Assembly: GCF_028583725.1 (NCBI RefSeq)
Contig: NZ_CP110680.1
Coordinates: 434,001-498,000, forward strand
Length of the DNA: 64,000 nucleotides
From: Cellulomonas fimi
GTDB taxonomy: Bacteria; Actinomycetota; Actinomycetes; Actinomycetales; Cellulomonadaceae
Direction: 5' to 3'
The position numbers were made by a program, and so were the translations under genes. Within the stretch, counting starts at the first letter, position 1. Every line of letters starts with the position of its first letter. Below are positions 28,565 through 36,792 of this stretch, piece by piece. The notes beneath the pieces were generated by a model that was not told the DNA's origin, ran no database searches, and saw nothing but the letters and a program-made list of their open reading frames with translations.

Positions 28565-29230
28565 TCAGTCCGTCGTCGGGTCGGGGAGGGGGAAGGTCCG
28601 CTCTCCGACGGGCAGGTCGACGGGGACGGTGTTCGCGCGCGTCGCGAGCGGGCACGCCCACGACGGGTCGTACGCGCACGACGGGTTGTAGGCGAAGTTC
28701 AGGTCGACGACCAGCAGGCCGTGCGAGGTGCCGAGGTCGGCGCCCTTGATGGTGTCGAGCACGTACCGCCCGCCGCCGAACGTCCCGCCCGGCTTCCCGC
28801 CGCTCGCGTCGCGGACGGGCACGAACAGCCCGCCGCCGTAGGACCGCAGAGCCCAGACGGCGAGGGACCCGACGTCGGGCAGGTCGACGACGCCGACACG
28901 CTCGAACGGGACGACACCGTCGGTGCCGGTGGTGACGTCGAGCCGCTGCGGCTCGGCCGGCCGGACCTCGACCTCGAACCGGTACGCGGCGTCGTAGCGC
29001 GCGACCTCGAGCCCGGCGAACGAGGCGCGCGTCGGGCCGTCGAGCGGGGACGCGGGGTGCTCGGCGAACAGCTCGTCACGCCGCTGCACCCACACGGCGT
29101 GCGCGGCGGGCGGGTCGTCGGCGGCGATCCGCCGCACGGCGGCGTACGTCTCGGCCACGCGGCGTCGCCAGTCGGCGACGGCGAGCGCGTCGGCGGCCCG
29201 GGCGGACGAGGTCAGCGGTCGGTGGGGCAC
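28565..29230 (-). CDS. DUF1684 protein
   Basis: The protein has 221 residues from GTG 29230. The N-terminal helix with WRRRVAETYAAVR and the C-terminal block GRYVLDTIKGADLG, FNFAYNPSCAY-like DLNFAYNPSCAYDPSWACP and PVGERTF match DUF1684, a family of unknown function often fused or adjacent to metabolic enzymes. A Cys pair in the NPSCAYDPSWACP segment is conserved. It is divergent from the LLM oxidoreductase. Confidence 0.8.
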   Translation of the reverse strand: MPHRPLTSSARAADALAVADWRRRVAETYAAVRRIAADDPPAAHAVWVQRRDELFAEHPASPLDGPTRASFAGLEVARYDAAYRFEVEVRPAEPQRLDVTTGTDGVVPFERVGVVDLPDVGSLAVWALRSYGGGLFVPVRDASGGKPGGTFGGGRYVLDTIKGADLGTSHGLLVVDLNFAYNPSCAYDPSWACPLATRANTVPVDLPVGERTFPLPDPTTD

Positions 29231-29353
29231 CCCTCCACCCTCGCACGCGCCCCCGACCCCCCGCCCGCGCAGTCGGCCCCTGACCGGCCCTCTCACCCAC
29301 CGCGCGCGGGCGCCGCGGCGCGCGGGCGGCGCGGCGCGTGTGAGGGTGGGGGC

Positions 29354-30298
29354 ATGGATCTGCGCATCTTCACCGAGCCCCAGCAGGGGGCCACGTACGA
29401 CGACCTGCTCGCGGTGGCGAAGGCCACCGAGGACCTGGGCTTCGACGCCTTCTTCCGGTCCGACCACTACCTGACGATGGGCGGCGACGGCCTGCCCGGA
29501 CCGACGGACGCGTGGACGACGCTCGCGGGGCTGGCGCGCGAGACGAGCCGCATCCGGCTGGGCACGCTCGTGTCGTCGGCGACGTTCCGCCACCCGGGGA
29601 TCCTCGCGATCCAGGTCGCGCAGGTGGACCAGATGTCGGGCGGCCGCGTCGAGCTGGGGCTGGGCACGGGGTGGTTCGCGCAGGAGCACGCGGCGTACGG
29701 GATCCCGTTCCCGGAGAAGCGGTTCGGCATCCTCGAGGAGCAGCTCGCGGTCGTCACCGGCCTGTGGGGCACGCCCGTGGGGGAGACGTTCGACCATGCG
29801 GGCGCCCACTACACGTTGACGGACTCCCCGGCGCTGCCGAAGCCCGTCCAGCAGTCGCCGCTCGACCCGTCGAAGGCCGGTGTGCCGGTGATCGTCGGCG
29901 GCAGCGGCCCGCGTCGCACGCCGGCGCTCGCGGCGCGGTACGCGGCGGAGTTCAACCTCGCGTTCCCGGCGTTCGACGAGGTCGAGGCGAAGCTCGCGAA
30001 CGTGGACCGTGCGCTGGAGGAGGCGGGCCGCGCAAAGGAGAGCCTGGTCCGCTCGGCGGCCCTCGTGCTGTGCGTCGGGTCGGACGAGGCGCAGATCGCA
30101 CGCCGCGCGCAGGCGATCGGCCGCGAGGTCGACGAGCTGCGGGAGCACGGGATCGCGGGCACGGTCGACGAGGTGGTTGACCGCCTGGGACGGCTGCGCG
30201 AGCAGGGCGTGTCGCGGGTGTACCTGCAGGTCCTGGACCTGCAGGACCTCGACCACCTGGACCTCGTCGCGCGCGAGGTGGTGCCGCGCCTGGGCTGA
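29354..30298 (+). CDS. LLM-class F420-dependent oxidoreductase
   Basis: The protein has 314 residues with ATG 29354. MDLRIFTEPQQ, FRSDHYL, RIRLGTLVSSATFRHPGIL and GRVELGLGTGWFAQEH are the luciferase-like TIM-barrel signatures of the F420-dependent group in Actinobacteria. The substrate is unknown. The 417-bp gap that follows separates it from the glucan synthase operon. Confidence 0.88.
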   Translation: MDLRIFTEPQQGATYDDLLAVAKATEDLGFDAFFRSDHYLTMGGDGLPGPTDAWTTLAGLARETSRIRLGTLVSSATFRHPGILAIQVAQVDQMSGGRVELGLGTGWFAQEHAAYGIPFPEKRFGILEEQLAVVTGLWGTPVGETFDHAGAHYTLTDSPALPKPVQQSPLDPSKAGVPVIVGGSGPRRTPALAARYAAEFNLAFPAFDEVEAKLANVDRALEEAGRAKESLVRSAALVLCVGSDEAQIARRAQAIGREVDELREHGIAGTVDEVVDRLGRLREQGVSRVYLQVLDLQDLDHLDLVAREVVPRLG

Positions 30299-30715
30299 CG
30301 AGCCCGATCGGGTGGGCCGGGTCCCCCGCAGGTGAAACCCGTTGCCCGGAGCGACGTCCCGCGTCTCGCGCCCTGAGACATGGGACCTCTCTCCGTGGAC
30401 GTCACACGGGTGGCCTGGGCCGACGCCGCCACGCATGGCCACCTGCCCGTTCGTCCTGCGCGTTCATCTCCGGTTCGCCCGATCCGACCCGAACTGTGAC
30501 CCGGCGCACACCGGGCGCGCGTGGACTAACCGGGCATACGTCCGTACGTTCGAAGACATCACGGGGCGGCGACGCCCGCCGGGAACCCACCCGACGCAAC
30601 CGGGTTCCTGCGGCGCCTCCCGCTTCTCGTGGGCCCGGCGCCAGCGTCGCCGTCGCAACGGAGGGTTCTGTCACGAGCCCTCCGCTCGACCGGACGACCA
30701 CCATGGGGGCGCTAC
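30299..30715 (+). promoter_or_regulatory. Long leader region of the glucan synthase operon
   Basis: No credible gene is present. The one clear structure is a hairpin, GGAACCC (30582-30588) with GGGTTCC (30602-30608), about 110 bp before the synthase start. I do not recognise a c-di-GMP or c-di-AMP riboswitch. The promoter is presumably here, but I cannot assign its boxes. Confidence 0.4.
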
Positions 30716-32428
30716 GTGGCCACAACTTTCGACAGGCTCGTGATCGAGCCGCGCAGGACCGAGTCCGAGCGGATCAGACCGACCCGCACACCCGAGAACA
30801 ACGAGGCCCAGAGCCCGTCGCTGCTGCTGCTCGTGCTGCTGGCGGCGACCGGCGTCATCGTCTACGCGGTCTTCCTGCTCAACCCGGCCAACCGGGGTGA
30901 CTGGCTGCCGTACGTGATGGTCATGCTCGCGGAGACGGTGCTCGTGGTCCACGCGCTGCTGGCGATGTGGACCGTGCTGTCCAGCGGGCACAACCCGCGC
31001 AACTTCGGGTTCCACCTCGCGCAGGACAGGCTGTACGACATCGCGGAGATCGTCCGCGACAAGACCGAGAAGCGTCCGCAGGACTGGCGGATGTACCTCC
31101 AGGAGTGGCCGATCAGCGTCGACGTCTTCATCACGACGTACGGCGAGGACCTGGACACCATCCGACGCACCGTCACGGCGGCCGTCGCCATGCAGGGCCG
31201 CCACGACACCTACGTGCTCGACGACGGCCGCAGCGACGAGGTCCGCGACCTCGCCGCCGAGCTCGGGGCCCGCTACGTGCGGCGCCTGTCGAGCAACGGC
31301 GCGAAGGCCGGCAACATCAACCACGCGCTGTCCCTGACCCGCGGCGACTTCTTCGTCGTGTTCGACGCGGACTTCGTGCCGAAGCCCGAGTTCCTGCACG
31401 AGACGGTGCCGTTCTTCGCGACGGACGACGTCGCGTTCGTGCAGACCCCGCAGACGTACGGCAACCTGCACACGATCATCTCCCGCGGCGCCGGCTACAT
31501 GCAGGCCGTGTTCTACAAGTTCGTCCAGCCGGGCCGGAACCGGTTCAACGCCGCGTTCTGCGTCGGCACCAACGTGATCTTCCGCCGCGCCGCGATCGAC
31601 TCCATCGGCGGCATCTACTCCGACTCGAAGTCGGAGGACGTGTGGACGTCGCTCATGCTCCACGAGAAGGGCTGGCGGACGATCTACATCCCCACGACCC
31701 TCGCCGTGGGTGACACGCCCGAGACCGTCGAGGCGTACACGAAGCAGCAGCTCCGCTGGGCGACCGGCGGCTTCGAGATCATGCTCACCCACAACCCGCT
31801 CTCCCGGAAGCGTCGCCTGACGATGGACCAGCGGCTCATGTACACGGTGACCGCGACGCACTACCTCACGGGGATCGCACCGCTGCTCCTGCTGCTCGTG
31901 CCGCCGCTGCAGATCTTCTTCGACCTCACCCCGATGAACCTGTCGATCACGCCCGGCCAGTGGGCGCTGTACTACGCCGGGTTCTACGTCATGCAGATCA
32001 TCCTGGCCTTCTACACGCTCGGCTCCTTCCGGTGGGAGGTGCTGCTGCTCGCGTCCGTGTCGTTCCCGATCTACACGAGGGCCCTGGTCAACGCGATCTT
32101 CCGCAAGGACCAGAAGTGGCACGTCACCGGCCAGAAGGGCGCCTATCGCTCGCCGTTCGCCTTCATGCAGCCGCAGGTCATGTTCTTCGTGTTCCTGCTG
32201 CTCACCACCGTCGTCGGCGTCTGGAAGGACCTCGGCAACGGCTACCTGAGCCTCGCGCTCGCCTGGAACGCGACGAACACGCTGATCCTCGGCGGTTTCG
32301 TCATCACCGCCTGGAAGGAGGGGCACGCCGGCCGTCTCGCGGCCCGCGCCGCCCGCGCCGACCAGGAGTCCACCCGTCGCAACGACGCGGCCGACCCGAA
32401 GCTCGCACTCACCGGAGGTGCCGCATGA
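30716..32428 (+). CDS. Processive GT2 glycosyltransferase (cellulose/curdlan-synthase-like)
   Basis: The protein has 570 residues from GTG 30716. Two N-terminal membrane helices (about 27-47 and 56-80) precede a cytoplasmic GT-A domain with TTYGED, the UDP-sugar DxD in VVFDADF (about 215-219), SEDVWTSL and the processivity motif QQLRW (about 344-348). At least four more helices follow, as in BcsA and curdlan synthase. There is no PilZ domain. The next two genes overlap it by 4 bp each: a membrane-fusion-like adaptor and a GH81 endo-beta-1,3-glucanase. The hydrolase suggests the product contains beta-1,3-glucosyl links. I infer a UDP-glucose-dependent exopolysaccharide synthase. Confidence 0.88.
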   Translation: MATTFDRLVIEPRRTESERIRPTRTPENNEAQSPSLLLLVLLAATGVIVYAVFLLNPANRGDWLPYVMVMLAETVLVVHALLAMWTVLSSGHNPRNFGFHLAQDRLYDIAEIVRDKTEKRPQDWRMYLQEWPISVDVFITTYGEDLDTIRRTVTAAVAMQGRHDTYVLDDGRSDEVRDLAAELGARYVRRLSSNGAKAGNINHALSLTRGDFFVVFDADFVPKPEFLHETVPFFATDDVAFVQTPQTYGNLHTIISRGAGYMQAVFYKFVQPGRNRFNAAFCVGTNVIFRRAAIDSIGGIYSDSKSEDVWTSLMLHEKGWRTIYIPTTLAVGDTPETVEAYTKQQLRWATGGFEIMLTHNPLSRKRRLTMDQRLMYTVTATHYLTGIAPLLLLLVPPLQIFFDLTPMNLSITPGQWALYYAGFYVMQIILAFYTLGSFRWEVLLLASVSFPIYTRALVNAIFRKDQKWHVTGQKGAYRSPFAFMQPQVMFFVFLLLTTVVGVWKDLGNGYLSLALAWNATNTLILGGFVITAWKEGHAGRLAARAARADQESTRRNDAADPKLALTGGAA

Positions 32429-33156
32429 CCTGGGCCAGCCGCATCCGACTCGTCGTCGGCGTGATCGTCGTCGCGATGATCGCCGCGCTCGCGACGTACC
32501 AGCTCAACGAGACCCGGGGGGTCGCGACGAGCGACTCCGCGCAGATCCTCGCCCGCACGTACAGCGTCGGGACCCCGTACTCGGGTCTCGTCGTCGACCA
32601 GAAGGTCGACGTGGGCGACACCGTGAAGACGGGCGACCCCCTGTTCGTCATCGACTCCGCGACCCTGCAGTACGACATCCGCAACGGCTTCGCCCGCCAG
32701 GCGACCGAGGCCACCCAGATCGACCCCGACGGCAAGCTCGTCATCCTCGCGACGGGCGACGGCACGGTCACCAAGGTCGGCTCCGAGCGCGGCACGTTCG
32801 TGCAGTCGGCGTCCGAGCTCGCCACCGTCCAGCGCGCCGGCACGCTCTACGTGCAGGCCGAGTACCGGCTGTCCGCCAAGGAGTACGCCCGCGTCCCGGA
32901 CGGCGCCGACGTGACCGTCGTGCTGCCCGACCAGCGGGAGATCGCCGCGACGGTCGAGCGGAACGACGTCGAGACCGTCGGCGGGCAGGCGCAGGCCGTC
33001 TTCACCATCACGGGCGACGAGCTCGTGGAGGGTGACGGTGACGGGCTCGTCTCGGCCGGCACCCCCGTGACCGCGGAGCTCCACCTCACGAACGACGGGG
33101 TGGTCACCCGCACCGCCGACTCCGTCAAGACCTACCTGAAGGGCCTCTTCGGATGA
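32425..33156 (+). CDS. Membrane-fusion (HlyD/biotin-lipoyl-like) adaptor of the glucan operon
   Basis: The protein has 243 residues. One N-terminal membrane helix (about 7-27) is followed by an external lipoyl-like beta domain (SGLVVDQKVDVGDTVKTGD), a second half GDGTVTKVGSERGTFVQ, and a beta-barrel region with DGADVTVVLPDQ. The long coiled-coil hairpin of classical HlyD is absent. ATGA overlaps join it to the genes on both sides. In Gram-negative mixed-linkage glucan and alginate systems a similar adaptor assists export. In a cell without an outer membrane it more likely guides the chain through the wall zone or holds the GH81 partner. Confidence 0.8.
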   Translation: MTWASRIRLVVGVIVVAMIAALATYQLNETRGVATSDSAQILARTYSVGTPYSGLVVDQKVDVGDTVKTGDPLFVIDSATLQYDIRNGFARQATEATQIDPDGKLVILATGDGTVTKVGSERGTFVQSASELATVQRAGTLYVQAEYRLSAKEYARVPDGADVTVVLPDQREIAATVERNDVETVGGQAQAVFTITGDELVEGDGDGLVSAGTPVTAELHLTNDGVVTRTADSVKTYLKGLFG

Positions 33157-35306
33157 CGGCACGCACCACGGACCACCCGCCCCTGTCCCCGCCCGCACCG
33201 GCGCCCCGTCGCCGCCGCTGGCTGATCGCCGGGATCGCCGCCCTCGCGGTGGTGACCCTCGCCGCGGTCGTCGTGCTCGTCGGCCCGTGGGGGCGCAGCG
33301 CCCCCGCGGCCGGCGGGTCCGGCGGCGGTTCCGCACCGGACGCCCCGGTCGCCGGCCCGCCCGACGCCCGCACCCCGGAGGTCGACACGGCCGCGCTGAC
33401 GGCCGGCGTCGAGCAGAAGGCCGTCGGCAAGATCGCGCCCGTGCGCCTCGCCGAGGGCGTCGTCCCGCCGACGAACCGCTGGTACAGCGGGCTCGTGTTC
33501 GGCGACGAGCCGCAGCCGGTCTTCGCGCAGCCGGTCTCGTTCGCGCTCACCGACACCGGCTTCACGCTCGGCCTGCCGGACCCGGTGGCCAGCGACAAGG
33601 CGGTCGTCGCACCGCACGTCCCGGCCGTGACCGTCGACGCTGGCGCCGCGTCCGCACAGGTCAGCGCCGCCGACCCCGTCAGCGTGACCGTCGACCTGCT
33701 CGACGCGACCGGCGCGGTGCTGGGACACGTCGTCCTCGCCGAGGGCTCGCCGTTCGTCAGCCTGACGGCCGAGCGGGACCTCACGCTGGACGCGACCGCC
33801 GAGGGCAGCTCGTTCTCGGGCGGCGGCGACGGCGAGCCGGCGACAGCCACCGTCGTGGGCACCGACTGGGCGCTCGTCGGCGCCGAGGGCGGCTCGACCA
33901 CCCTCGCCGCGGGCGACACCGCGACCTGGTACCCCGTCCCGCAGGACGCCGACGCCGACGCGGCCGCCGCGCTCGCGACCGCCGCCGCCGACCCCGTCAC
34001 GGGGGTCGACGTGACCTACGGCGTGGACGACGACGTGGCCCGCACGACCCTCACGTACAACACCGCGGGCGGCACGCCGTCGGCCTACGTGCTCGCGCCG
34101 CACCAGCGCACCGGCACCCAGCCGGAGCGCGACGGCTGCGACCTGGGCACCTACCCGAGCGTGTACGGCACGCTCGAGCTCTGCGCCGGCTCGCACCTGT
34201 CGGCGTTCGCGCCCACCGTGCGGCCCACGGGCGCGCTCGACCTCGACGGCGTCCCCGACGACCGTCGGACCGCGATCGTCGACGCCCTGCGCGCCGACGT
34301 CGCGGCCACCGAGCCGTTCCCGTCGGACACGTACTTCGGCGGGAAGGCGCTGTTCCGCGCGGCGTCCCTCGTGACGCTGGGCGAGCAGCTCGGCGCCGAC
34401 GACGTGGTGGCCGACCTGCGCACCCGGACGACCGACGCGCTGCGCGAGTGGGCGGAGCCCGACGGCTGCGCCGAGCGGGACGCACGCTGCGTCGTCTACG
34501 ACGCGGCCGCCCGGTCCGCGATCGGCCTCACGCCCTCGTTCGGGTCGGACGAGCTCAACGACCACCACTTCCACTACGGGTACCTCCTCGCGGCGGCCGG
34601 CCTCCTGTCGGCCGACGACGAGTCGCTCGCGGAGGACCTCGCGCCGGTCATGGACCTGCTCGCCGCCGACATCGCCTCGGCCACCCCGACGGACGAGCTG
34701 CCGCAGCTGCGGTCGTTCGACCCGTGGTTCGGGCACTCGTGGGCGTCGGGCACGTCGCCCTTCGCGGACGGCAACAACCAGGAGTCGTCCTCGGAGGCCG
34801 TCAACGCGTGGAACGGCCTCGGGCTGTGGGCGCAGGCGTCCGGGCAGGACGACCTCGCGACGCAGGCGGCGTGGATGACCTCCACGGAGGCCGCGTCGGC
34901 GCGCGCGTACTGGACGGCGCCCGACCTGGACGACCCCGCGCTCGACGGGTTCGGCCACGAGGTGTTCTCGATCAGCTGGGGCGCGAAGCGTGACTACGCG
35001 ACGTGGTTCAGCCCTGAGCCGTCGGCGATCCTCGGCATCCAGCTCATCCCCATGGGCCCGGTGCAGATGTCGCTCGCGACCGGCGTCGACCCGGAGCGGA
35101 TCTCGGCCGCCGTCGAGGAGTCCGGGTTCACCGGGCCGCTCGCCGACTACGTCGTGACGTACTCCGCGCTCGCGGGGGAGGACGCGGCGGAGAAGGCGTG
35201 GACGACGGCCACCGGGCTGTCGGAAGACGCGATCGACGACGGGTCGTCCCGCGCGTCGATGCTCGCGTTCATCGCGTCCGCGCAGGCGCACCCGCCCCGC
35301 AGCTGA
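33153..35306 (+). CDS. Membrane-anchored GH81 endo-beta-1,3-glucanase
   Basis: The protein has 717 residues. A basic N-terminus and a single hydrophobic helix (about 18-40) without a clear cleavage site suggest an external enzyme held in the membrane. A Gly/Pro/Ala linker follows. GH81 signatures are strong: PTNRWYSGLVFG, FGSDELNDHHFHYGYLL (catalytic Asp near 469) and DPWFGHSWASG with DGNNQESSSEAVNAW (catalytic Glu near 545). It should cut beta-1,3-glucan. Because it is translationally coupled to a glucan synthase, I infer that it edits or releases the polymer made by that synthase rather than feeding on foreign glucan. Confidence 0.9.
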   Translation: MTARTTDHPPLSPPAPAPRRRRWLIAGIAALAVVTLAAVVVLVGPWGRSAPAAGGSGGGSAPDAPVAGPPDARTPEVDTAALTAGVEQKAVGKIAPVRLAEGVVPPTNRWYSGLVFGDEPQPVFAQPVSFALTDTGFTLGLPDPVASDKAVVAPHVPAVTVDAGAASAQVSAADPVSVTVDLLDATGAVLGHVVLAEGSPFVSLTAERDLTLDATAEGSSFSGGGDGEPATATVVGTDWALVGAEGGSTTLAAGDTATWYPVPQDADADAAAALATAAADPVTGVDVTYGVDDDVARTTLTYNTAGGTPSAYVLAPHQRTGTQPERDGCDLGTYPSVYGTLELCAGSHLSAFAPTVRPTGALDLDGVPDDRRTAIVDALRADVAATEPFPSDTYFGGKALFRAASLVTLGEQLGADDVVADLRTRTTDALREWAEPDGCAERDARCVVYDAAARSAIGLTPSFGSDELNDHHFHYGYLLAAAGLLSADDESLAEDLAPVMDLLAADIASATPTDELPQLRSFDPWFGHSWASGTSPFADGNNQESSSEAVNAWNGLGLWAQASGQDDLATQAAWMTSTEAASARAYWTAPDLDDPALDGFGHEVFSISWGAKRDYATWFSPEPSAILGIQLIPMGPVQMSLATGVDPERISAAVEESGFTGPLADYVVTYSALAGEDAAEKAWTTATGLSEDAIDDGSSRASMLAFIASAQAHPPRS

Positions 35307-35346: not shown

Positions 35347-36792
35347 TCAGACGGCGTCGCTCGCCTCGTGCAGCGGCGCCGTCTGCGGCGTCCGGGGGCC
35401 GGTCGCCCCCGCGGGCGCGGGCGTCGCCAGCTCACCGGACCCACCCGTGGGCGCCGACGGCCCGCCGGTCGCCGCGGTGGCGTCCGCGGTCGTCGGCGCA
35501 CCGGCTCCCGGCGCATCGCCCGCCGCGGGCGGCAGGTCGTGCGCGGGCGGCCGCAGCAGGGCGCGGGCGGTCGTCACGAGCAGCACGACGAGCGCGACGT
35601 TGCGGGCCGCGAGGACGGCGGTGACGAGCAGCCCGCCCCCGAGGATCTGGTCGTACCCCCACGGGAAGACGACCTGCGTCGCCGCGGCGACACCGGCGAC
35701 GGTCCACGCGGTCGTCCGCCAGCCCGGGAGCCGCAGCGCGAGCGCGACCGCGACCGGCGGCGCCAGCCACCCGACGTACTGCGGCGACCCGACCTTGTTG
35801 AAGACGATCGTCGCGAGCACCAGCAGCAGGGCCCCGCGCACGACGAGCTCGCGCTGCGCGACCGCGTCCTCCCAGAACCGGTCCCCGAGGTGCCGCCGAC
35901 GCCACCACAGCAGCGCGGCGCACGCCGCCAGTCCGACGAAGAACAGCGCGCCGAGCGCGTCGGCCGCGCCCGCCGTGCCGGGGCCGGACACCTCCCAGGT
36001 GACGATCGGCTCGTTGAGGTGGCGGCGCACGGTGTCGCTGAACACGCCGACCAGCACCCACGGCGTCGCGCCGACGGCCTCGATCTGGAGCCCACGGTCC
36101 TCCTGCTCACCGAGGAACGACGCCACGTGCGCGCCGCCGCCGAGCGCCAGCACGGCCCCGACGACGACGACGCTGACGACGGCCGCGGGCAGCACGACGT
36201 CCCGCCACGGCCGGCGCACCGCCACGACCACCGCGAGCAGCAGCGCACCCGGGGCGACCTTGATCCAGGCGGCGACGGTGAGCAGCACCGACGACACCCG
36301 CGGGTGGCGCAGCGTGACGGCGAGCGCGACGACGACCAGGGGCGCGACGACGGCGTCGAGCCGGCCCATCGCGATGGGACCGAGGAGCGCGAGGAACCCG
36401 ATCCACCACCAGGCGCCCGTCGTCGTGCGCGGCTCGTGCGGCCGGCGGCCGCCGGTCCCGGCGGGACGCGCGAGCCGCGGCGCGTGCAGCAGGACCCCGA
36501 GCGCGGCGGCGTCGAGCGCGGTGACGAGCACGGACCAGGTGACGGCGTACGCGGGGCCGGTCCACTGACCGGTCGCGGCGGCGGCGAGCATCGGGCCGAT
36601 CGCGCCGACCGGGTACACCCAGTCGCCGGACAGGACGGGCCACTGCCCCTCGTGCACGCCGAGCCACATCCAGTAGCGGTAGAGCTCGAGGTCCCAGAAC
36701 GCCTTCTGCGGGATGAGCACGACGCCGACGTACGCCAGCCAGGCGTGCACGGCGAGGAACGCGACCCAGACGGCCGTCAAGGAGCGCAGCAA
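35347..36792 (-). CDS. GT87-like (DUF2029) polyprenol-linked mannosyltransferase
   Basis: This 481-residue membrane protein has about 10 hydrophobic segments. The FWDLELYRYW motif in the first external loop carries the acidic residue expected of GT-C enzymes, and GRLDAVVAPLVVVAL, AWIKVAPGALLL and NKVGSPQYVGWLAPP are conserved DUF2029 segments. Such enzymes add mannose from a polyprenol donor to lipoglycans. A Pro/Ala/Thr-rich cytoplasmic tail follows. The start is TTG 36792 or possibly CTG 36801, which has GGAGG 5 nt upstream. Confidence 0.8.
   Translation of the reverse strand: MLRSLTAVWVAFLAVHAWLAYVGVVLIPQKAFWDLELYRYWMWLGVHEGQWPVLSGDWVYPVGAIGPMLAAAATGQWTGPAYAVTWSVLVTALDAAALGVLLHAPRLARPAGTGGRRPHEPRTTTGAWWWIGFLALLGPIAMGRLDAVVAPLVVVALAVTLRHPRVSSVLLTVAAWIKVAPGALLLAVVVAVRRPWRDVVLPAAVVSVVVVGAVLALGGGAHVASFLGEQEDRGLQIEAVGATPWVLVGVFSDTVRRHLNEPIVTWEVSGPGTAGAADALGALFFVGLAACAALLWWRRRHLGDRFWEDAVAQRELVVRGALLLVLATIVFNKVGSPQYVGWLAPPVAVALALRLPGWRTTAWTVAGVAAATQVVFPWGYDQILGGGLLVTAVLAARNVALVVLLVTTARALLRPPAHDLPPAAGDAPGAGAPTTADATAATGGPSAPTGGSGELATPAPAGATGPRTPQTAPLHEASDAV

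Follow-up and report, generated by a model that had tools for sequence, protein, structure and literature searches.

In the bacterial cellulose system (BcsA-BcsB-BcsZ), the GH8 hydrolase BcsZ is linked to the cellulose synthase. Systems of a synthase plus a hydrolase are already known in monoderm bacteria, and the first-pass annotation, which knew of no characterised system of the present kind in a monoderm, somewhat overstated the novelty of the locus analysed here. The cellulose-synthase-like enzymes CslA-GlxA of Streptomyces and CcsA of Clostridia work with a radical copper oxidase or with other hydrolases, and are not known to pair with an HlyD adaptor and a GH81 enzyme. The curdlan of Cellulomonas flavigena has been known for decades, and none of the papers that we found establishes a gene set for it. 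The curdlan passages of the 2013 genome paper call unclear how C. flavigena reuses this polymer, and give two GT2 proteins, both 35-39% identical to CrdS of Agrobacterium (PMC3544764). The same passages name distant curdlan-synthase homologues of C. flavigena, C. fimi and C. gilvus that are, by position, the synthases of the operon described below (PMC3544764), which also tempers the claim of novelty; that of C. flavigena is Cfla_3154.

The operon lies in the window, i.e., the whole stretch of 64,000 nucleotides that was analysed. The host is a soil bacterium, and many actinobacterial relatives carry the same unit. The features are:

30629 (or 30716)..32428, forward strand: processive GT2 synthase gene (open reading frame, motifs, predicted fold)
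32425..32428, forward strand: ATGA stop/start overlap at the synthase-adaptor junction (80 of 88 distinct single-copy operons)
32425..33156, forward strand: one-helix HlyD-type adaptor gene (243 aa; Pfam and fold)
33153..33156, forward strand: ATGA stop/start overlap at the adaptor-GH81 junction (NTGA at the stop in 80 of 88 operons)
33153..35306, forward strand: gene of a GH81 endo-beta-1,3-glucanase of 717 aa with a putative membrane anchor (or signal) at the N-terminus (Pfam and catalytic residues)

We confirmed the coordinates, the strand and the 4-bp overlap at each junction. The synthase frame is open from a GTG at 30629 (599 aa); an in-frame GTG at 30716 (570 aa), near the point where many orthologues begin to align, is the likelier start. 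The overlaps are a conserved trait: ATGA at the stop codon was found in only 45 of 583 other open reading frames of the same loci, compared with the 80 of 88 synthases. At the adaptor stop we counted 45 GTGA, 32 ATGA and three TTGA, whereas these three kinds together occurred in 142 of the 583 control frames. A scan for promoters and terminators gave no promoter-like site and one terminator-like site (0.7 expected).

The first-pass annotation had made its reading depend on conservation of the neighbourhood beyond a single strain, and the neighbourhood is indeed widely kept. We detected the synthase in 94 of the 221 genomes of the family (E ≤ 1e-60; absent from 127 at this threshold) and the GH81 lineage of the operon in 96 (E ≤ 1e-90). 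Both occur together in 92 genomes, every pair within 7 kb, and in the two genomes with the synthase only, contig ends interrupt the locus. In 97 of 101 loci all three genes are present together and share a strand, across genera that range from Cellulomonas to Microbacterium and Demequina. A chance neighbourhood is ruled out by this linkage (92/94) and by the conserved overlapping starts. The distances between synthases and between GH81 enzymes are correlated (Mantel r 0.906, 90 operons, a value reached in 0 of 999 permutations), which is equally expected from shared descent alone. Four genomes of the family have the operon-type GH81 lineage and lack the synthase, showing that this hydrolase can stand alone. 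Among 396 genomes of the phylum searched for GH81, six had a match, and the three of these that also had a synthase-like match carried the two on different contigs or more than 700 kb apart. Hence, the linkage is not general to the phylum. Overall, a real, coupled synthase-adaptor-hydrolase system is well supported.

The synthase is a processive GT2 of the cellulose-synthase superfamily, with D,D,D,QxxRW motifs and a GT-A core with transmembrane helices. The processive motifs and BcsA-like architecture proposed at first pass hold up well: every one of the 98 distinct orthologues has DDG, DADF, SED and the Q, R and W of QxxRW unchanged, and the predicted model (pLDDT 86.5) is nearest to solved BcsA, followed by plant CesA, CslF6 and hyaluronan synthase. 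BcsA is also the best sequence match in the PDB (E 4e-52). The protein scores 259.8 bits with the NCBIfam model of CelA (TIGR03030), below the curated cut-off of 699.1, and 71.8 and 46.4 bits with those of PgaC and NodC. It has a gating-loop-like WHVTG and a short tail after the last helix, with no PilZ domain at E ≤ 1 in Pfam. The search for BcsB found nothing in the operon (its sole match, E 0.55, lies at 52 kb), and CrdC likewise had no counterpart at E ≤ 1, either in the window or in seven related loci. The synthase lacks both the FFCGS/TED of BcsA (present in 4/4 BcsA-type rows) and the FCCGS/TED of BgsA. It has instead FCVGT...SED (V, G, T and SED in all 98 orthologues, F in 97, C in 86, with S in 12), which is common to the CrdS homologue, the single CrdS-type row of the comparison. 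This signature may contribute to setting the linkage.

The phylogeny places the synthase outside a 10-row proteobacterial clade of BcsA, BgsA and the CrdS homologue (support 100/99), where the one CrdS homologue is weakly placed (83/34). The tree has one far outgroup row (PgaC) and one root, and several rows have long branches or odd composition; its rows exclude hyaluronan synthase and RiGT2, and the CslA-GlxA/CcsA enzymes are not placed by name. It does not decide the product. The grouping with hyaluronan synthases or unrelated GT2 enzymes that the first-pass annotation had considered damaging is not observed, since PgaC stands apart, the CelA score far exceeds those of NodC-type models and the nearest fold is BcsA. 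Synthases of the hyaluronan, PNAG or NodC type are thus ruled out by the tree and the model scores. Membership in the BcsA family is ruled out too, given the missed TIGR03030 cut-off and the lack of PilZ and BcsB. The parallel once drawn with cellulose or mixed-linkage synthases fails at the family level, as the synthase falls outside their clade.

The adaptor was correctly described as a one-helix, membrane-fusion-like protein. It matches HlyD_3 of Pfam above the cut-off (39.8 vs 22.2 bits), and its predicted structure has one transmembrane helix and a barrel-sandwich fold, with matches to ZneB, MacA, EmrA, MexA and AcrA. A helix of only eight residues (79-86) replaces the alpha-hairpin of other membrane-fusion proteins.

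The third gene product has a clear GH81 C-terminal domain (PF17652, 160.1 bits, cut-off 25.6) and an N-terminal domain under the cut-off (PF03639, 19.7 vs 25.6 bits). Its best PDB match is the GH81 structure 6fop (E 9.8e-54), in a phmmer alignment that begins at residue 100. Residues D470, E544 and E548, aligned with BH0236, are invariant in 94/94 sequences; we presume the acid/base roles among them. The catalytic motifs are therefore intact, as first annotated, whereas the hydrophobic stretch at the N-terminus could be either the uncleaved anchor then proposed or a signal peptide. We found no carbohydrate-binding module in this enzyme with Pfam. The GH81s of the operons fall in a clade of their own, which also contains four stand-alone enzymes and is distinct from the long GH81s found elsewhere in the same genomes. 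To our knowledge, endo-beta-1,3-glucanase is the sole activity reported for GH81.

We propose, with a rough probability of 0.58, that this is a synthase-dependent exopolysaccharide system of monoderm actinobacteria, whose genes serve to make, export and trim a curdlan-like glucan rich in beta-1,3 links. In favour of this, C. flavigena, long known as a curdlan producer, carries the operon intact. As its fold and motifs resemble those of BcsA, the synthase would build the polymer from UDP-glucose on the cytoplasmic face and pass the chain along a channel of its own in the membrane. The adaptor, held by its one helix, may be located at the exit, on the outer side of the membrane, where it would guide or cap the chain; its lack of a hairpin for reaching an outer membrane would fit a monoderm host. 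By analogy with BcsZ and cellulose, the anchored GH81 might cut the emerging or misfolded chain. The polymer probably has runs of beta-1,3-linked glucose, because this is the only linkage that GH81 enzymes are reported to cut as endo-glucanases. A sister synthase in genome G692 (38.9% identity by BLAST, residues 69-561) is in an operon of the same gene order, where the adaptor is followed by a GH16 in the place of the GH81; no further operon of the GH16 type was found in the 13 genomes searched in that family (1/13). We consider it sound to infer beta-1,3 links in the product from the GH81 and from this GH16. The earlier claim that the operon makes and trims a beta-1,3 glucan thus stands as regards the coupled system, and as regards the product it leans on the hydrolases.

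The strongest competing explanation, which we consider unlikely, is that the product has another linkage, i.e., that it is cellulose or a mixed beta-1,3/1,4-glucan from which GH81 removes occasional beta-1,3 stretches, or in which it has another role. Neither the fold nor the motifs of the synthase fix the linkage, its best models are those of cellulose synthase (TIGR03030, PDB match and fold), and HlyD-type partners also accompany the mixed-linkage synthases BgsA, according to the sections of PMC9495663 on these proteins. Yet the TIGR03030 cut-off is missed, the synthase is outside the BcsA/BgsA clade and has neither of the corresponding signatures, and the GH81 enzyme characterised in the relevant part of PMC9609564 did not hydrolyse barley beta-glucan or CMC, although minor activity is reported there for some others.

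A slightly less probable alternative is that the curdlan of Cellulomonas comes from a second CrdS-like GT2, the operon making a different wall or biofilm glucan. We found this second protein in the four genomes searched (by position Cfla_2615, Celf_3585 and Celgi_0939, and G000:C1:2900361-2902028), so C. flavigena curdlan could come from it. The CrdS homologue finds both proteins, which fits the 35-39% identities to Agrobacterium CrdS given for the pair in the curdlan passages of PMC3544764, and the local identity in the first segment is higher for the second GT2 (39-44%) than for the operon synthase (35-36%). Moreover, the three operon genes are also present and open in C. gelida, for which the exopolysaccharide account in PMC3035266 reports no curdlan. 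Conversely, the match of the CrdS homologue to the second GT2 is weaker than that to the operon synthase (106 vs 166 bits, G000). The second GT2 has a BcsA-like FFCGS/TED and a long insert; in the host genome it adjoins a GAF-SpoIIE gene, and a scan of its neighbours there showed neither a hydrolase nor an adaptor. It is very improbable that the GH81 mainly scavenges fungal or plant beta-1,3-glucan and follows the synthase by an accident of shared regulation: the host genome does have two further GH81s that look degradative (one with FN3 and CBM6), and the lineage stands alone in four genomes, but the 92/94 linkage, the overlapping starts, the separate clade, the lack of a detected carbohydrate-binding module and the distribution of the lineage (13 of 25 genera, including all 10 with the synthase) argue otherwise.

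Several observations count against the curdlan reading: the reportedly curdlan-negative C. gelida, the second CrdS-like GT2, the position outside the clade of the CrdS homologue, the stand-alone GH81s, the 127 synthase-less genomes and the single GH16 case. We put forward only tentatively, at somewhat less than even odds, that the operon is the Cellulomonas curdlan locus and that its synthases are an actinobacterial line of beta-1,3-glucan synthases that arose separately from proteobacterial CrdS, with a translationally coupled adaptor at the exit and an editing GH81 (GH16 in the sister line). If so, the operon hydrolase would be a readable label of the polymer linkage, and one locus could both make and cut curdlan. 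The operon is a testable candidate for the curdlan genes of Cellulomonas. It would allow the way in which an editing hydrolase cooperates with its synthase and adaptor to be compared in a monoderm, and would provide a curdlan-type synthase independent of the one from Agrobacterium that is used industrially.

Among known systems, the operon resembles Bcs in the fold, the D,D,D,QxxRW motifs, the gating-loop-like WHVTG and the linkage of hydrolase and synthase, and differs by the lack of PilZ or BcsB matches, the GH81 in place of a GH8, the HlyD-type adaptor and the missed CelA cut-off. The CslA-GlxA and CcsA enzymes are likewise actinobacterial or monoderm cellulose-synthase-like proteins working with extra enzymes. 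RiGT2 of Romboutsia ilealis is another monoderm GT2, BcsB-independent and producing a (1,3;1,4)-beta-glucan with 1,3 links; the sections of its report considered here mention no GH81 or HlyD partner (PMC10374906). BgsBA of Sinorhizobium/Rhizobium also combines a synthase lacking a detectable PilZ with an HlyD-like protein, BgsB, and a BgsB/CrdA profile matches the adaptor remotely (probability 94.7%, 115 columns). BgsBA is, however, a two-gene operon without a hydrolase, BgsA belongs to another clade, and the short tail of the operon synthase lacks the c-di-GMP-binding C-terminal part described for BgsA in the sections of PMC9495663 on this protein. Agrobacterium crdASC (CrdS, CrdA, CrdC) differs in its clade, in its CrdC (unmatched in the operon), in gene order and in the 484-residue CrdA homologue, compared with a hairpin-less adaptor of 243 aa; the monoderm host and the added GH81 set the operon further apart. 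The order of the crdASC-homologous locus L120 is HlyD, GT2 and a third gene; five of the 11 published crd primers match it better than unrelated loci (2-4 mismatches, in the right genes) and six do not, so L120 is a crdASC homologue rather than the published operon. What the two systems share is a GT2 synthase adjoining an HlyD-family protein, the FCVGT...SED signature and 35-36% synthase identity.

The three genes lie where the first-pass annotation had placed them, all on the forward strand, and an ATGA overlap occurs at both the synthase-adaptor and the adaptor-GH81 junction:

30629-32428, +, GT2 synthase ORF with Pfam GT2 domains (in-frame GTG also at 30716)
32425-33156, +, adaptor, Pfam HlyD_3 (39.8 bits, cut-off 22.2)
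33153-35306, +, GH81 hydrolase, Pfam GH81 C-terminal domain (160.1 bits, cut-off 25.6)

The best PDB matches were BcsA for the synthase (E 4e-52) and the GH81 enzyme 6fop for the hydrolase (E 9.8e-54), whose GH81 N-terminal domain scored 19.7 bits, below the Pfam cut-off. A GT87-type glycosyltransferase (35347-36792, -) is convergent with the operon, and a relative is found no more than 2.5 kb away in 37 of the 98 loci having GH81. The long upstream ORF (28565-30442, -) has a DUF1684 domain confined to its last ~150 residues; the remainder is probably an over-long reading frame.

We counted translational coupling from the stop context alone, because start codons were picked mechanically. Among 88 distinct single-copy operons the synthase stop reads ATGA in 80, GTGA in three and otherwise in five, and ATGA is found at the stop of 45 of 583 other long ORFs from the same loci. 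The adaptor stop reads NTGA in 80 of the 88 operons (GTGA 45, ATGA 32, TTGA 3), against 142 of the 583 control ORFs.

The synthase is present in 94 of the 221 genomes of the family and 10 of its 25 genera (E ≤ 1e-60); whole-length matches end at 1e-239, and all weaker ones come from a single split gene, as its two fragments. Operon-type GH81 occurs in 96 family genomes (E ≤ 1e-90). The two are found together in 92, always at most 7 kb apart (by handle, contig and position). Two genomes have the synthase without GH81, both at a contig end (G070, G144), and four have GH81 without the synthase (G012, G015, G017, G039; loci L244-L247). All three genes are on one strand in 97 of the 101 fully read loci, a set that is partly redundant since the same genomes occur in two collections. 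The others are interrupted by contig ends (L053, L067, L094) or, in L138, have a synthase in two pieces (G158:C1:359986-361709) adjoining an intact adaptor and GH81. The operon is complete in 50 of 52 named loci and in 34 of 35 family-sample loci. Named carriers include Cellulomonas, Sanguibacter (cut), Actinotalea, Cryobacterium, Curtobacterium, Lacisediminihabitans, Frondihabitans, Microbacterium and Demequina, with MAGs named Friedmanniella, Propionibacteriaceae and Nanopelagicales. Synthase matches were found in 52 of 396 genomes of the order-level sample (E ≤ 1e-100), and all five loci inspected outside the family encode the adaptor and GH81 (synthase identity 55-68%). The phylum-level sample gave matches in 29 of 396 genomes (E ≤ 1e-40), with identities of at most 44% except for the window's own. 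Three of the 101 loci have two synthase-adaptor pairs and a single GH81 (L108 and L118 of Demequina, and L137 of genome G175), perhaps for two polymers or a hetero-complex.

Both enzymes have conserved active sites: D198, D199, D246, D248, E336, D337, Q373, R376 and W377 are invariant in all 98 distinct synthases, and D470, E544 and E548 in all 94 distinct operon GH81s. The latter align with NDHHFHYG and NNQESSSEA of the GH81 BH0236; their acid/base roles we take to be those of the GH81 literature. Of the 94 GH81s, 77 have a 19-residue segment of strong hydrophobicity ahead of the catalytic part, and in 88 the flank before this segment is the more positively charged. Since A-x-A follows shortly after it in 39, a cleaved signal peptide is possible.

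The four stand-alone GH81s share a clade with the operon enzymes (100) and are nested within it, a pattern that loss of the neighbouring synthase would produce. The long GH81s of the window's and other genomes form another clade (100). The window's genome encodes two further GH81s, one with FN3 and CBM6. Eight Cellulomonas loci (L070, L071, L072, L073, L074, L092, L104, L115) encode another GH81 (28-29% identity) immediately after the operon; the three of these eight placed in the tree group with the CBM6-bearing enzyme.

The operon synthases are monophyletic (100/100) in a tree of 65 rows. Next to them stand the synthase of genome G692 (100/98) and then three rows from other genomes of the class (97/85). 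BcsA, BgsA and CrdS-type rows from Proteobacteria fall in a clade of their own (100/99). Downstream of the sister synthase in G692 (L207:7379-10934) come a one-helix adaptor and then a membrane-anchored GH16 bearing the EVDILE motif. At the related locus of G381, the next in the tree (L219:5288-8097), the last 4 bp of the synthase are shared with a GH26-domain gene. The hydrolase slot therefore seems to vary by lineage, the GH16 and GH26 cases coming from one genome each.

The CrdS-type reference, L120, is an Agrobacterium plasmid operon of an HlyD protein, a GT2 and a third gene. We regard it as homologous to crdASC on the strength of published crd primers, from the excerpts used of PMC4327974 and PMC3293034: five of 11 fall in its corresponding genes with 2-4 mismatches, one exactly at the start of the first gene; the other six fit L120 no better than unrelated loci. 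The acceptor-site signature of the operon synthase, FCVGT...SED, is as in L120; four BcsA-type rows have FFCGS...TED and BgsA has FCCGS...TED. The operon synthase has a gating-loop-like WHVTG, and a Pfam search found no PilZ domain in it. Unlike the window synthase, the related actinobacterial GT2s of L216, L220 and L221 have a C-terminal PilZ domain. The model of the synthase (pLDDT 86.5, pTM 0.85) matched BcsA, then plant CesA, CslF6 and hyaluronan synthases. Tree, signature and fold do not fix the linkage. Should the operon GH81 act on what the operon makes, this product would contain contiguous beta-1,3 links; the GH16 of the sister operon also points to beta-1,3, the substrate range of GH16 being broader.

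Searches with the L120 CrdS gave two strong matches in each of C. flavigena, C. fimi and C. gilvus: the operon synthase (35-36%) and one second GT2. The tags Cfla_3154, Celf_3456 and Celgi_1506 occur together, within the open PMC literature, only in a 2013 genome paper (PMC3544764). Relative gene positions and tag numbers differ by no more than 0.015. Given this agreement and the CrdS matches, the operon synthase is most likely Cfla_3154 in C. flavigena, where all three operon genes are open, and Celf_3456 and Celgi_1506 in C. fimi and C. gilvus. In its retrieved part, that paper counts GH81 among the enzymes degrading beta-glucan in the three species, calls it unclear how C. flavigena reuses its own curdlan, and draws no connection between GH81 and the synthase. 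The second GT2, a rival candidate for the curdlan synthase, lies in the window's genome at G000:C1:2900361-2902028 (L239:7302-9239, -); it has a BcsA-like FFCGS/TED signature with a long insert between, and overlaps the end of a GAF-SpoIIE phosphatase gene. According to the excerpt used of PMC3035266, citing Kenyon et al. 2005, curdlan is made by C. flavigena and not by C. gelida. The intact operon of C. gelida is the main result against the curdlan reading, although a silent operon in that species would account for it.

The adaptor gave no convincing match in plain BLAST. A profile of 34 adaptors matched a profile of BgsB/CrdA-type proteins with 94.7% probability over 115 columns. Its model (pLDDT 87.6) has a TM helix and a membrane-fusion barrel-sandwich, and only an 8-residue helix occupies the position of the hairpin. 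We found no description of the operon in the open PMC literature. Synthase-adaptor and synthase-hydrolase pairs are already known kinds; what is new is the combination of a GT2, a hairpin-less adaptor and a GH81 in monoderms.
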